Positions 29,877 to 62,879 of a stretch of DNA of 64,000 nt are shown here, one piece after another. Source of the stretch: Thiomicrospira pelophila DSM 1534 (GTDB lineage: Bacteria > Pseudomonadota > Gammaproteobacteria > Thiomicrospirales > Thiomicrospiraceae); NCBI RefSeq assembly GCF_000711195.1, contig NZ_JOMR01000001.1:310001-374000 (forward strand), given 5' to 3'. The notes under the pieces were generated by a model. It was given only the letters and a program-made list of their open reading frames with translations, searched no databases and had not been told where the DNA came from. Each line of letters begins with the position of its first letter. Within the stretch, counting starts at the first letter, position 1. A program made the position numbers and the translations under genes.

Positions 29877-32069
29877 ATGAGTGATAATACTCAAGCCTTG
29901 TCGGGTCGCGCGTTAGCTCGTGCGAGACGTCAAGCATTAACAAAGGGTAAGGGAGCTAAGATTGATTATGCTGAACTTTCCCAGAGTACCTCTGCACCTG
30001 TAAAGAGTTCGGCGCCTGAGCGGAGTGAGGAAGTTCCCACTCCGTCAAGTCGCAAAAGATCAAGAGATGTTATTCCCCAGCAGCCAGCTATGTCTGCAGG
30101 TAGAAAAGCATCTATTGAGCGTCGAAAGCAACAGGTTAAAGGTAAAACTTCACGAGGTGGCGCACAGCCAACTAGACAGCCTAGAAAGTCTGTTGAAACG
30201 GCGGTTGATACTACGCCGGTTGAGAAGTCAGCAACAGCAGAGCAGAGTTATATTGCGCCTGCAAGTGCTGGCAAAAACCGTGCAAAAGTTAATGCTGTCA
30301 AGCCAACAGCTACTGTGCAACCAAAAGGTCGCTTAGTTGCAAAGGCTTATAGAAAAGCCGCATGTGAAGGTAAGGCTAAATTGCAAGCTAAGATGAGTCA
30401 AAACAGTGCATTAACCTGCATTGATGCGTCGACTGATCCGAATGCAAGTTGTCGTGATATTGCTCGGAAGGTACGTGAGCAGCGTGCTACTCACGGTAAA
30501 GTGAAGGCGTCATCTTCACAACGTCCAGCAGGTCGTGCGTCAAAAAAGTCTGGTAACAGTGCACCTGAGAAGGTCGGTGTTGCGAAAACATCTTATGATC
30601 AAGATGTAAGTGGAACGCTTGTTTCAAATACCAACAAGATGACGGGTAGTGAAGCAGGTGGTTGCCGAGTAATTAGTGGTACTGAATATACTGGCCCTGA
30701 TGAATATCAAGCGAAGTGTAGTTTTAAACCAGAGCCTAATCCAAGAAAGGTAGCAATGACAACAACTGCATCCGGCCGTAGTGTCAGTGGAACTGAAGTT
30801 GGCTTTTCAAAGTCAGTGACTGGTACAGAGTCGGGACAATGTCGTAGCGTTACTGGTACAGAATATTTGCCGGCTGATCAAGGTGAAGTTTTCTGTGGTA
30901 GTAAGCCTGAAGCAGGTCCTTCGAAAGTGAGTCAATCAAAAACGGTAAGAAACCAAATGGTATCTGGCCCAAGTATGAATACTCGCCAAGACATGACTGG
31001 ATTAGAAGCAGGTGCACAGCGTACTGTGACCGGAAGTCAGTACGTGTCTAGTTCAGCGCCTATGGGCAAAGAACCAACACGTCAAGCACGCGGTAGTATA
31101 ATGTCTCAGTCTGAAAAACATGAAGTTTCTCATACAGGTGGCGGCGCAGCGGTATCAGGTACAAACGTAAATTTTTATAAGCCTGTTACAGGCGATGAGT
31201 CTGGTTTTTGTAAGAATGTAACTGGTGGGCAGTATCAATCACAAGAAGTTCGTAAAGAACGTTGTGATGATGAGTTGCAACCAGGACCTACAAAATCCAT
31301 TCAATCACAGACATTTGCAGGTCAGAAAATCACCGGGGATCGTGCTGGTTTAGGCGGAAAAATCACTGGTGCGGCTGCAGGTATGTGTAAAAGTGTAACA
31401 GGCTCTTCATATTTAAGTTTTGATGCTGTTGAGTCTTGTGGTGTTGAACCTTCAAGTCTAAAACCTGACGCGAATAAGTTCACCCCTCAGTCAAAGCCAA
31501 CAACGGGCGGCCAGCCTGGACCTTTAGGTCTTACTGGTGCTCAAAAAGGCGTTTGTAGCTCTGTGAGTGGTACTCCATATCAGGGTGTAGATCATACATC
31601 TGCTATGTGTCAGTCTAGTATGCCTTCTATGGCAGGTGAGTCAGATTATCCAACGATGATTATGGCTGCGCCTCAACCTATGATGGCTCAGGCACCGGCT
31701 ATGTTTAATGGTGCTAATGCTTACTCTGCACCTATGGTTCAGCCGGCACCAATTATGATTGGTTCAGAGCAACACAATGAAGCTGACAAAGCGGTTGCTT
31801 CAAGAATAACAGGAGATGGAGCCGATTCTGGTTTTTCAATTACCGGTGATTCTTGGCGTCGTGATGGAAAAGTTTCTGGAACGGAAGGCAAATGGTCACA
31901 ATCTCGTAATGTCTCAATGCGTGGTGTGGAAACACGCCAATCAATGGGGGCACATGATTTTAGACCGGTTACTAATCCGCAGGTTGCTGATATAAGCCCA
32001 ATTACAGGTTCTTCTGGCAACACAACTAGTGGTGCAAGCATAACTGTATCGGGTGGAGCACGCGCTTAA
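29877..32069 (+). CDS. csoS2: Carboxysome scaffold protein CsoS2
   Basis: This 730-residue, repeat-rich, disordered protein organises RuBisCO and shell. The N-region has four basic RuBisCO-binding motifs, near residues 11-25, 76-90, 151-166 and 191-208. The middle region contains repeated VSGT / VTGTE units with paired Cys, for example SGTEVGFSKSVTGTESG and CRSVTGTEYL. A C-terminal region ends ITGSSGNTTSGASITVSGG. In Halothiobacillus a ribosomal frameshift makes a short CsoS2A. I found no clear canonical slippery heptamer here, so isoform status is open. The start has AGGAGG upstream at 29865-29870. Confidence 0.97.
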   Translation: MSDNTQALSGRALARARRQALTKGKGAKIDYAELSQSTSAPVKSSAPERSEEVPTPSSRKRSRDVIPQQPAMSAGRKASIERRKQQVKGKTSRGGAQPTRQPRKSVETAVDTTPVEKSATAEQSYIAPASAGKNRAKVNAVKPTATVQPKGRLVAKAYRKAACEGKAKLQAKMSQNSALTCIDASTDPNASCRDIARKVREQRATHGKVKASSSQRPAGRASKKSGNSAPEKVGVAKTSYDQDVSGTLVSNTNKMTGSEAGGCRVISGTEYTGPDEYQAKCSFKPEPNPRKVAMTTTASGRSVSGTEVGFSKSVTGTESGQCRSVTGTEYLPADQGEVFCGSKPEAGPSKVSQSKTVRNQMVSGPSMNTRQDMTGLEAGAQRTVTGSQYVSSSAPMGKEPTRQARGSIMSQSEKHEVSHTGGGAAVSGTNVNFYKPVTGDESGFCKNVTGGQYQSQEVRKERCDDELQPGPTKSIQSQTFAGQKITGDRAGLGGKITGAAAGMCKSVTGSSYLSFDAVESCGVEPSSLKPDANKFTPQSKPTTGGQPGPLGLTGAQKGVCSSVSGTPYQGVDHTSAMCQSSMPSMAGESDYPTMIMAAPQPMMAQAPAMFNGANAYSAPMVQPAPIMIGSEQHNEADKAVASRITGDGADSGFSITGDSWRRDGKVSGTEGKWSQSRNVSMRGVETRQSMGAHDFRPVTNPQVADISPITGSSGNTTSGASITVSGGARA

Positions 32070-34149: not shown

Positions 34150-34458
34150 ATGAGCAATGAATATGGTATTGCACTAGGTATGATTGAAACTCGTGGTTTG
34201 GTTCCAGCAATCGAAGCTGCAGACGCGATGACTAAAGCTGCCGAAGTTCGTTTAGTTACACGCGAATTTGTTGGTGGTGGTTACGTTACTGTTTTGGTTC
34301 GTGGTGAAACTGGTGCCGTTAACGCCGCAGTTCGCGCTGGTGCTGATGCTTGTGAGCGTGTTGGTGACGGCCTTGTTGCTGCGCACATCATTGCACGTCC
34401 GCACAAAGAAGTTGAGCCTGTTTTAACTGCAGGTATTAACCCAGCTTCTCGTCTGTAA
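34150..34458 (+). CDS. csoS1: Carboxysome hexameric shell protein CsoS1, second copy (BMC-H)
   Basis: The 102-residue paralogue is nearly identical to the preceding one through residue 90 and differs at the C-terminus (VEPVLTAGINPASRL). Tandem csoS1 genes are usual in proteobacterial alpha-carboxysome operons. Many synonymous differences between the two copies show the duplication is old but held by protein-level selection. It is followed by a perfect 26-bp palindrome before the next gene. Confidence 0.97.
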   Translation: MSNEYGIALGMIETRGLVPAIEAADAMTKAAEVRLVTREFVGGGYVTVLVRGETGAVNAAVRAGADACERVGDGLVAAHIIARPHKEVEPVLTAGINPASRL

Positions 34459-39454: not shown

Positions 39455-39997
39455 ATGAAAAAAAATACGGTTTATATTACCGGGACCCTTGGTATTGAAA
39501 GTCAAAACAAGGCGAAAGTAAGTCTTAGTAATTCTTTAAGAACGCCTTCACAAGCTGTAACGGGTGTTTCATCTCGCCCGATTGATACCTTAACGGCTAA
39601 TGAAAACAGTTTTTGTGCGCCGGTTGATGAAAAGCTTGCTGCTGACCTATTTGATAAATGGAATGCGGCACTAAAAACACGCAACCCTAAAGCGGTAGCA
39701 GCGCTTTATGCAGAGGATGCGGTTTTACTACCGACAGTTTCAAACCTTGCCAGAACGAATTTGGCAGAGATAGAAGATTATTTTGCACATTTCTTAGAAA
39801 AAAGCCCAGTTGGTACGATAGTTCAGCGCAATGTTAAAAAAGGTTGTAACAAAATAACAGATGCTGGTATTTATTCATTCCGCTTGACTGATAAGACTGG
39901 TACGAAAGAAGTACCAGCGCGTTACACTTTTGTATACGAATTTAGAGATAATGGCTGGAAAATAGTTCATCATCATTCATCTGTGATGCCTGAATAA
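39455..39997 (+). CDS. Putative iota-class carbonic anhydrase with CsoS2-like N-terminal extension
   Basis: Residues about 58-180 form a SgcJ/CaMKII-association-like domain matching bacterial iota-CAs: LYAEDAVLLPTVSN, AEIEDYFAHFLEKSPVGTI, ARYTFVYEF and the terminal WKIVHHHSSVMPE (HHHSS at 172-176). Iota-CAs interconvert CO2 and bicarbonate, some without metal. Residues 1-57 are polar, not a Sec signal, and contain ITGT (8-11) and AVTG (34-37), like the VTG/VSGT units of CsoS2 in this window. I infer that this enzyme is packaged in the carboxysome in place of CsoSCA. Family membership is well supported; location and activity are inference. Confidence 0.85.
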   Translation: MKKNTVYITGTLGIESQNKAKVSLSNSLRTPSQAVTGVSSRPIDTLTANENSFCAPVDEKLAADLFDKWNAALKTRNPKAVAALYAEDAVLLPTVSNLARTNLAEIEDYFAHFLEKSPVGTIVQRNVKKGCNKITDAGIYSFRLTDKTGTKEVPARYTFVYEFRDNGWKIVHHHSSVMPE

Positions 39998-40014: not shown

Positions 40015-40632
40015 ATGCATTCTCGTAATCAAAAAAATGGTTTACATGCACCAAAACCAATAGTTTTGGCATCTAGCAATCCAGGTAAGCTTGCAGAAAT
40101 GCAGGAGATTATGAAGGGATACTATGTGTACCTGCAGTCTGAGTTTTTTTCTGATCAGGTAGAAGAAACAGGCCACAGTTGCATTGAAAATGCGATCCTA
40201 AAAGCAAGGTATGCGGCGGAAAAAACTGGCTTACCCGCTATAGGTGATGACTCTGGTTTATTTGTTGAAGCTTTAAATGGAGCTCCAGGTCTGTTTTCCG
40301 CTAGGTTTGCCGGCGAGACGGCTGATGATAAAGCCAATGTTCAAAAGCTGCTAAAGGTTATGCATGATATCCCTGAGGGGCACCGTCATGCTAAATATGT
40401 CTGCACTATGGCCTATGTAAGGTATGCCACGGATCCGTTGCCAATATGTGTAACTGCTGACTGGTCTGGTTATATTCTGGCTGAGCCACGTGGTAAAGAA
40501 GGATATGGGTATGATTCAGTATTTTACCTTTTCCGTGAGCGCGCAACCGTGGCCGAGTTGTCACCCGTATTAAAACTTAGACTAAGTAACCGAACGCAAG
40601 CGTTGCGTGAGCTCTTAGCACAAATAGATTAA
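40015..40632 (+). CDS. Ham1/RdgB-like nucleoside triphosphate pyrophosphatase of the carboxysome locus
   Basis: This 205-residue protein contains VLASSNPGKLAEMQEIM, IGDDSGLFVEALNGAPGLFSARFAG and GYGYDSVF, the Ham1/RdgB substrate- and Mg-binding segments. The C-terminal LSNRTQALRELL replaces the usual SHRGQA with SNRTQA, so the conserved Ser-His-Arg becomes Ser-Asn-Arg. Ham1 genes also occur in cyanobacterial alpha-carboxysome clusters. It may remove non-canonical purine nucleotides or have a locus-specific role. It lies 17 bp after the iota-CA gene. Confidence 0.88.
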   Translation: MHSRNQKNGLHAPKPIVLASSNPGKLAEMQEIMKGYYVYLQSEFFSDQVEETGHSCIENAILKARYAAEKTGLPAIGDDSGLFVEALNGAPGLFSARFAGETADDKANVQKLLKVMHDIPEGHRHAKYVCTMAYVRYATDPLPICVTADWSGYILAEPRGKEGYGYDSVFYLFRERATVAELSPVLKLRLSNRTQALRELLAQID

Positions 40633-61499: not shown

Positions 61500-62879
61500 A
61501 TGGATCAGTCGAATCGTTATGCTGACTTGAGTTTGAAAGAAGAAGACCTAATTGCCGGTCAAAACCATATTTTGGTGGCTTATAACATGCAGCAGGTCGC
61601 GGGTTATGGTTACCTAGAAGTGGCGGCGCATATTGCGGCCGAATCATCAACCGGTACAAACGTAGAAGTATGTACTACCGATGATTTTACTAAAGCGTTA
61701 GACGCATTGGTTTATGAGATTGATGAAGCCAATCACGTGATTAAAATTGCTTATCCGTTCGATTTGTTCGACCGTAACGGCACTGATGGCAAAACCATGT
61801 TGGTTTCTTTCCTAACTTTGGCGATTGGTAACAACCAAGGTATGGGCGATGTTAAAAACCTACAGATGGTAGATTTTTGGGTTCCAGAAACTAAATTGCA
61901 CTTGTTTGATGGTCCTGCAAAAGACATTTCTGACATGTGGCGTGTTTTGGGTCGTGATTATAAAAACGGTGGTTACATCGCGGGTACGATCATCAAGCCA
62001 AAATTAGGCTTACGTCCAGAACCTTTTGCAGCCGCAGCTTACCAGTTCTGGTTAGGTGGCGACTTCATTAAAAATGATGAACCACAAGGTAACCAAGTTT
62101 TCGCACCAATGAAAAAGGTTATGCCTTTAGTGGTTGATGCGATGAAACGTGCACAAGACGAAACCGGTCAAGCCAAGTTGTTCTCTGCCAACATCACCGC
62201 AGATGACCATTACGAAATGCTTTACCGCGCGGACTACATCCTAGAAGCCTTTGGTGAGTTTGCACAAAACGTTGCATTCCTAGTTGACGGCTATGTAGGT
62301 GGTCCTGGCATGATTACAACCGCTCGTCGTAATTATCCTTCACAATACTTACATTATCACCGTGCAGGTCATGGTGCGATCACATCGCCATCTGCTAACC
62401 GTGGTTACACCGCATTTGTTTTATCTAAAATCTCTCGTTTACAAGGGGCGTCAGGTATCCACGTGGGTACGATGGGCTTCGGTAAAATGGAAGGTGGCAA
62501 CGAAGACAAAAATATTGCTTACATGATCGAGCGTGATGAGTGTCAAGGGCCATTCTTCTATCAAAAATGGAACGGCATGAAGCCAACCACGCCAATCATC
62601 TCTGGCGGTATGAACGCACTTCGCCTACCGGGTTTCTTCAAAAACTTAGGTCACGGCAACATCATCAACACCTCTGGCGGTGGTTCATATGGCCACATCG
62701 ACAGCCCAGCCGCCGGTGCGATTTCATTGCGCCAGTCTTATGAGTGTTGGAAGCAAGGGGCCGACCCAATCGAATTCGCGAAAGAACACAAAGAATTCGC
62801 GCGTGCGTTTGAGTCCTTCCCTGCTGATGCTGACAAAATCTATCCAGGTTGGAGAGAAAAGTTAGGCGTTCATAAATAA
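61500..62879 (+). CDS. cbbM: Form II RuBisCO
   Basis: This 459-residue enzyme is the form II type: [38 protein letters not shown] carries the carbamylated Lys. [23 protein letters not shown] and [13 protein letters not shown] (loop 6) complete the active site. It has no small subunit and works best at high CO2 and low O2, complementing the carboxysomal form I enzyme. cbbQ and probably cbbO follow as its activase. Confidence 0.98.

Follow-up and report, generated by a model that had tools for sequence, protein, structure and literature searches.

A probable encapsulation tag with a CsoS2-type shell-binding motif at the N-terminus of a carboxysomal iota-class carbonic anhydrase

In alpha-carboxysomes, contact between the scaffold protein CsoS2 and the shell is ascribed to a short motif, [IV][TS]G (passages of PMC11606499). 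According to sections of PMC10484944, the [IV]TG motif of CsoS2 contacts a strand and His79 of CsoS1A in Halothiobacillus shells, and every CsoS2-CsoS1A interface aligned there uses this pair. An exchange of VTG to AAA in the CsoS2 middle region was reported to weaken shell binding as well as growth in air (excerpts of PMC11365436), and the C-terminal region (CsoS2-C) acts as an encapsulation peptide which brings foreign cargo into shells (excerpts of PMC10938918). The entry of carbonic anhydrases into alpha-carboxysomes is disputed even for CsoSCA, for which a Rubisco-bound and a shell-bound position are discussed (passages of PMC12646314). An iota-class carbonic anhydrase (iCA) in Thiomicrospira carboxysomes was published by Wieschollek et al. 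2024, as cited in PMC12628692, PMC12646314 and PMC13159521; the passages of these three papers which cite that work make no mention of a tail. In titles, abstract openings and passages of the literature, the text of Wieschollek et al. 2024 lying outside this scope, no description of a shell-binding tail on an iota-CA was found. The enzyme class itself is already known, and any novelty lies in the tail and in its occurrence outside Thiomicrospira, in genomes with a retained CsoSCA.

The window analysed in this study comprises 64,000 nucleotides of Thiomicrospira pelophila DSM 1534, and its iCA gene, the only copy in the genome, is placed in an extended alpha-carboxysome locus (Table 1). The locus starts with cbbL, cbbS, csoS2, a degenerate csoSCA, csoS4A, csoS4B, two csoS1 genes, a ferritin-like gene and a SulP transporter. 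Behind these follow genes for an SbtA-like transporter, a PII-like protein and a LysR regulator (cbbR), then the iCA and a Ham1/RdgB-type gene, and finally csoS1D and the gene of a ParA-type ATPase. The genes were recognised by their domains, whereas cbbS and the precise gene designations follow common usage. For CsoSCA_C no match was found in the window genome, and a degenerate csoSCA is described in passages of PMC9164163. The Ham1/RdgB-type gene recurs in the carboxysome loci of relatives and has no obvious link to carbon fixation. The PII-like product is possibly an SbtB-like regulator, and the second Rubisco of the window is possibly of form II.

Table 1. Features of the window discussed in the text (positions are those of the window)
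Feature	Position	Strand	Basis or remark
CsoS2 C-terminal region, residues 644-730: ITGD, ITGD, VSGTEG, ITGSSGN...VSGGARA	31806..32066	+	motif positions 644, 655, 666, 709, 724
Degenerate CsoSCA (csoSX in the literature), 332 aa	32075..33073	+	CsoSCA_N E 0.0011, under the Pfam cut-off
His79 codon, first CsoS1 copy; proposed docking residue	34009..34011	+	His at 79; BMC domain
His79 codon, second CsoS1 copy	34384..34386	+	His at 79; BMC match
PII-like protein, 100 aa	38105-38407		directly after SbtA-like transporter
Iota-class carbonic anhydrase (iCA), 180 aa	39455..39997	+	ORF, PF08332 match, C-terminus HHHSSVMPE
N-terminal extension, residues 1-57: proposed encapsulation tag (~1-45) and conserved junction to core	39455..39625	+	pLDDT; one iCA clade
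First motif ITGT, residues 8-11	39476..39487	+	[IV][ST]G[TS] in 51/51 distinct tails
VS, residues 22-23, conserved hydrophobic-Ser pair	39518..39523	+	Ser in 50/50 aligned tails
Second motif VTG, residues 35-37	39557..39565	+	second [IV][ST]G in 39/51 tails
PIDT, residues 42-45, conserved, adjoining core	39578..39589	+	Asp in 50/50 aligned tails, Ile in 45/50
Ham1/RdgB-type nucleotide pyrophosphatase gene	40015-40632		between iCA and csoS1D
Second Rubisco large subunit	61566-62789		33% identical to carboxysomal CbbL

The assignment of the enzyme rests on domain, fold and C-terminus. A domain search placed PF08332 (CaMKII_AD) over residues 63-179 (E 2.9e-21). By sequence comparison 3h51 is the closest relative of known structure (E 1e-36), and it is also the best fold match in Foldseek (E 6.5e-17), as for a protein of the CaMKII_AD / SnoaL-type fold; the fold neighbours include oligomeric CaMKII hubs. 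Within the C-terminal HHHSSVMPE, the HHHSS is invariant or almost so among relatives and presumably represents the iota-class motif. Because of the domain match, the solved relative and this C-terminal end, the product is classified as an iota-class carbonic anhydrase. The class is defined by CO2 hydration activity without a metal, and the Thiomicrospira iCA enzyme is reportedly active.

The earlier note, made from the sequence alone, had pointed to an ITGT (residues 8-11) and an AVTG (residues 34-37; 39554-39565) in the N-terminal extension of this protein. The ORF, its coordinates and both motifs were found as described there, and its view that the extension is neither a Sec signal nor part of the core domain also agrees with our results. 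The most hydrophobic 11-residue stretch averages only 0.85 on the Kyte-Doolittle scale, compared with 1.95-2.83 in five untagged iCA N-termini resembling signal sequences, and a Sec signal was rejected on these values; the CaMKII_AD match begins only at residue 63. The first 50 residues or so are predicted to be disordered. In the AlphaFold2 model, pLDDT is below 50 for residues 1-39, averages 51 for residues 41-50 and ranges from 39 to 51 over residues 1-50, and the core from residue 51 onwards reaches a mean of at least 84 per block. No helix is predicted within residues 1-57, the first one (residues 59-74) lying inside the core.

From 52 tagged loci, 51 distinct tail strings were obtained and used for motif counts, spacing and pN/pS; the position-by-position alignment comprised 50 tails, with L108 left out. 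The motif [IV][ST]G lies in this extension in all 51 tails, and the first motif reads ISGT in 35, ITGT in 14 and ISGS in two of them. Eight different codons are used at its S/T position and synonymous changes occur freely, and therefore the conservation acts on the protein. In 39 of the 51 tails a second [IV][ST]G follows at a distance of 27-29 residues from the first; in the other 12 it is degenerate (VTQ, VTT, VTV) or absent. Further fixed positions among the 50 aligned tails are a Ser preceded by a hydrophobic residue, an Arg shared by most of them, the PIDT next to the core, and a Cys-x-Pro junction of tail to core. Pooled pN/pS over 13 chosen pairs, many with saturated synonymous sites, was 0.141 for the extension and 0.074 for the core.

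As chance controls served 1134 mechanical ORFs of the same loci (at least 150 aa, ATG start), from which iCA and CsoS2 had been removed. An [IV][ST]G within the first 57 residues occurred in 62 of these, two or more in five, and [IV][ST]GT within the first 20 residues in two. The motif content of the tail exceeds chance, since [IV][ST]G[TS] followed by [IV][ST]G 20-32 residues later was found in none of the 1134 control ORFs. Inspected by eye, 26 of 39 tagged loci have a carboxysome gene in the flank (csoS1D counted; parA, cbbR, sulP and sbtA excluded) and 13 have none, partly through contig ends; the tail is retained in both groups. In L059, L060 and L061 (G005, G007 and G001 of the same genus) a second tagged iCA was seen beyond csoS1D on the far side, and this paralogue retains ITGT without a second VTG motif.

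The comparison of the tail with targeting sequences by column shuffling separates shell-binding from Rubisco-binding elements. Only two of 250 shuffles scored as high as the tail against the CsoS2 C-terminal VTGTEG element and again two against the M-repeats, whereas 185 did so against the CsoSCA N-termini and 188 against the Rubisco-binding N-repeats of CsoS2. Because of these counts the likeness appears to be of the shell type and not of the Rubisco type. The matched stretch is only seven columns long for the C-terminal element as well as for the M-repeats, so that the profiles point to the short shell-binding motif of CsoS2 with nothing longer proven. In a run of 200 shuffles, two were as high for the C-terminal element, one for the M-repeats, 31 for the extreme C-terminus and eight for the whole C-terminal region. 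Two more extended readings were rejected: for a copy of VTGTEGxWxxxRNxSxRG, nothing past the short motif beats the column shuffles, and for a copy of ITGSSGN...VTLSGGAR at the extreme C-terminus, 39 of 250 shuffles were as high, which is within chance and leaves extended homology unproven. In line with a short likeness, the tail profile had no match to CsoS2 in the 62 genomes of the window's family at E <= 1, a smaller profile comparison gave E 0.034, and no match to PF12288 (CsoS2_M) was found in the iCA, which is not counted as a CsoS2 family member. Single Thiomicrorhabdus tails look strikingly like the CsoS2 C-terminus.

The earlier note had described the two motifs as spaced like the VSGT...VTGT units of CsoS2, and this detail was wrong. 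Within the CsoS2 repeats, motif triplets stand about 8 residues apart (11 from start to start), whereas the starts in the iCA tail are 27 residues apart (27-29 in relatives), and mimicry of the M-repeats by spacing was rejected. The first tail motif aligns to the C-terminal element of CsoS2 (KVSGTEG) and only the second to an M-repeat, with equal shuffle support. According to passages of PMC10484944, the resolved CsoS2 fragment F2 ends at Gly823; numbered on an 869-residue chain, this corresponds to the last Gly of ITGTAGQWASGRNPSMRG, the element that comes closest to the first iCA motif. The C-terminal region of the window's CsoS2 itself matches solved shell-bound CsoS2 chains with a best E of 2.5e-16.

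Among 62 genomes of the window's family, an iCA relative (E <= 1e-4) was detected in 25 and CsoS2 in 47, including all 25 iCA genomes; none of the 15 family genomes without CsoS2 holds an iCA. The CsoSCA_C domain is present in 37 of the 62. Ten family genomes have CsoS2 and no CsoSCA_C, every one of them with an iCA, and an iCA also occurs in 15 of the 37 genomes holding CsoSCA_C, where tagged iCAs stand beside intact CsoSCA_C matches. Within the window's genus, eight of nine genomes contain an iCA, and in the remaining one (G004, 83% complete) CsoSCA takes its place. The tail was found on the iCA of 23 of the 25 iCA-holding family genomes, and all 23 encode CsoS2.

Public genomes gave a similar picture. 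The best 80 of 150 iCA relatives comprise 39 tagged loci, 40 untagged loci and one of FKBP type, the tagged ones belonging to Thiomicrospira, Thiomicrorhabdus, Hydrogenovibrio, Thioalkalivibrio, Guyparkeria, Halothiobacillus sp., Methylonatrum, Ectothiorhodospiraceae and other MAGs. Many of the 40 untagged iCAs among these 80 have signal-like or bare N-termini, and in none of the 40 was [IV][ST]G found within the 62 residues before the core (frame set by match position; an HHHSS-framed version of this check covered nine loci, one of them of FKBP type). Of the 30 tagged genomes of the public scan that were searched for CsoS2, 28 gave a match; the other nine of the 39 tagged loci were left out of this search, mostly as apparently already present in the family survey. 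By profile search, CsoS2 was found in none of 39 genomes with untagged iCAs (40 loci, L144 apparently being from the same genome as L142 and counted once); in 36 of the 39 the search gave no match anywhere, controls included, and the same model matched in the family and in the public tagged genomes. The proposal of the earlier note, a scaffold-mimic peptide that recruits the enzyme, is thus partly supported: it holds in outline, having withstood the refuting condition set in the note (the same extension on iCAs of organisms without carboxysomes) save for two tagged genomes with no CsoS2 match, and it fails for the M-repeats in particular, for the reasons of spacing and alignment given above.

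The two tagged genomes without a CsoS2 match differ from each other. The assembly of G091 (1.1 Mb) encodes a 206-residue CsoS1D-like BMC protein and has no match to the window's CbbL; in the 5.1-Mb assembly of G112 the iCA is encoded on a contig of 3.65 kb next to unrelated genes, and neither a BMC nor a CbbL match was found. As to other cargo, the tail profile gave 27 matches at E <= 1e-3 in the 62 family genomes (23 genomes), all of them iCAs, so that no other tagged cargo was found there; the next-best match (E 0.003) has an internal stop. In 369 genomes drawn from the class, tail matches occurred in five, again all iCAs, two of them in genomes apparently identical with those of L106 and L091.

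A core-domain tree (70 rows, 123 columns, quick method, unrooted) included 39 of the 52 tagged loci. Of the 71 rows prepared, L118 dropped out because the core pattern missed it. On this tree a single branch (SH-aLRT 99) separates all 39 tagged rows from the remainder, the two FKBP-type rows included. The tail is restricted to one iCA clade and has a single origin. Because the tag arose once, its link to carboxysomes represents one event which was kept, and not repeated gains. The FKBP-type iCAs carry an N-terminal FKBP-like domain instead of the tag (PF00254; E 2.1e-5 in G009 and 5e-8 in G060), and their loci, L015 and L115 (G009; Thiotrichales bacterium 35-46-9) and L029 (G060), belong to carboxysome genomes without a CsoSCA_C match. 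Since the FKBP-type rows form a branch of their own, a second recruitment of an iCA is suggested. A tagged iCA and an intact-looking CsoSCA gene were seen on one stretch in L062, L064, L066, L067, L071, L088, L090, L093-L096, and likewise in L098, L100-L102, L107, L108 and L110-L112. Because they share one stretch, two carboxysomal carbonic anhydrases, CsoSCA and the tagged iCA, may coexist in those loci.

The first 50 or so residues of the iCA are probably a disordered encapsulation tag for the carboxysome, acting through the CsoS2-type shell-binding motif [IV][ST]G(T). This reading is based on the motif together with a lineage that nearly always encodes carboxysomes, which would make the tail a label for bringing the iCA inside. 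The disordered tail would carry once or twice the motif that grips the inner face of the shell, and would lie on the edge strand and His79 of CsoS1 at the lumen side; His79 is present in both CsoS1 copies of the window. Several tails per enzyme oligomer could provide avidity and keep the enzyme inside during shell assembly, and the tag would be needed for packaging. The sticker may have been borrowed from the scaffold CsoS2 or have converged with it, rather than stemming from the Rubisco-binding tails of CsoSCA and CsoS2. The case for docking is weakened by a likeness limited to a short motif, the mismatch in spacing, the 12 of 51 tails that lack the second motif, the single origin and the two tagged genomes without a CsoS2 match. 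It also counts against the proposal that CsoSCA reportedly attaches to the shell without a defined peptide (passages of PMC12646314), because a carbonic anhydrase would then be able to enter without such a tag.

It seems unlikely to us that the tail is a targeting peptide for Rubisco in which [IV][ST]G is incidental. The precedent is CsoSCA, likewise a carboxysomal carbonic anhydrase, whose disordered N-terminal tail is reported to bind Rubisco (passages of PMC12918739), and basic residues are present in the iCA tail. By sequence, however, this reading was rejected, as the shuffles revealed no profile similarity to CsoSCA N-termini or to the Rubisco-binding repeats of CsoS2, whereas the shell-binding motifs score. 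There is likewise little probability that the tail has no targeting role and serves folding, oligomerisation or regulation, or is a relic of the clade, with entry of the iCA through its core or through a partner, for example csoSX. The single origin of the tag, which reduces the co-occurrence with CsoS2 to one event, would fit such a role, and so would the conserved PIDT and Cys-x-Pro junction, which may pack on the core, and the two carboxysome genomes whose FKBP-type iCAs lack the tail. However, among the segments distant from the core the best-conserved one is the known shell-binding motif, and no csoSX is required in those 15 family genomes where a tagged iCA stands beside intact CsoSCA_C matches.

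A binding partner other than His79 of CsoS1, reached by the same motif, appears very improbable; CsoS1D, the CsoS4 pentamer or a condensate of CsoS2 and shell would come into question. Such a partner would be in keeping with the binding of CsoS2 F3 at the pentamer-hexamer interface (passages of PMC10484944) and with the position of the iCA near csoS1D in several loci; in L097, L103 and L104 no carboxysome gene other than csoS1D was seen beside it. Against this stand the aligned CsoS2-CsoS1A interfaces from the same source, all of the [IV]TG-His79 type, and the His79 of both CsoS1 copies here. Docking on CsoS1 is the reading that we prefer.

In a wider view, which we put forward tentatively and as a whole, alpha-carboxysomes might use an address code for cargo that is derived from the shell-binding motif of their scaffold. 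One iota-CA clade of sulfur-oxidising gammaproteobacteria, spanning Thiomicrospira, Thiomicrorhabdus, Thioalkalivibrio, Guyparkeria, Halothiobacillus sp. and others, would be docked by its scaffold-mimicking tail directly on CsoS1 and independently of Rubisco; many such bacteria would run CsoSCA and iCA together, and the FKBP-like domain would be the solution to the same problem in a second iCA lineage of carboxysome genomes. If true, a natural cargo with the scaffold's own motif would be a small and clean test case for the entry of carbonic anhydrases. The tail might also become relevant as a compact targeting tag for shell engineering, where CsoS2-C, the current tag, loads cargo less well than synthetic anchors (excerpts of PMC10938918), and it could help to recognise by sequence those carboxysomal iCAs whose genes lie apart from the carboxysome locus.

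Among known systems, the Rubisco-binding tail of CsoSCA agrees with the iCA tail in being disordered and in extending a carboxysomal carbonic anhydrase at the N-terminus; the two have no sequence similarity in the shuffle comparison. Like the encapsulation peptides of bacterial microcompartments (BMC), the iCA tail is short, terminal and attached to the core of an enzyme. These peptides are short helical domains (passages of PMC12339742), whereas the model of the iCA tail has no terminal helix, and a helix may form on binding. With the C-terminal and middle regions of CsoS2 the tail has in common a disordered chain and [IV][ST]G followed by T, its first motif matching the C-terminal VTGTEG. 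CsoS2 is a scaffold with motif triplets 11 residues apart, whereas the tail is the N-terminus of a cargo enzyme with one or two motifs 27-29 residues apart. The enzyme itself very probably belongs to the same protein family as the Thiomicrospira carboxysomal iota-CA of Wieschollek et al. 2024, the nearest named relatives of the window's iCA being those of Thiomicrospira.
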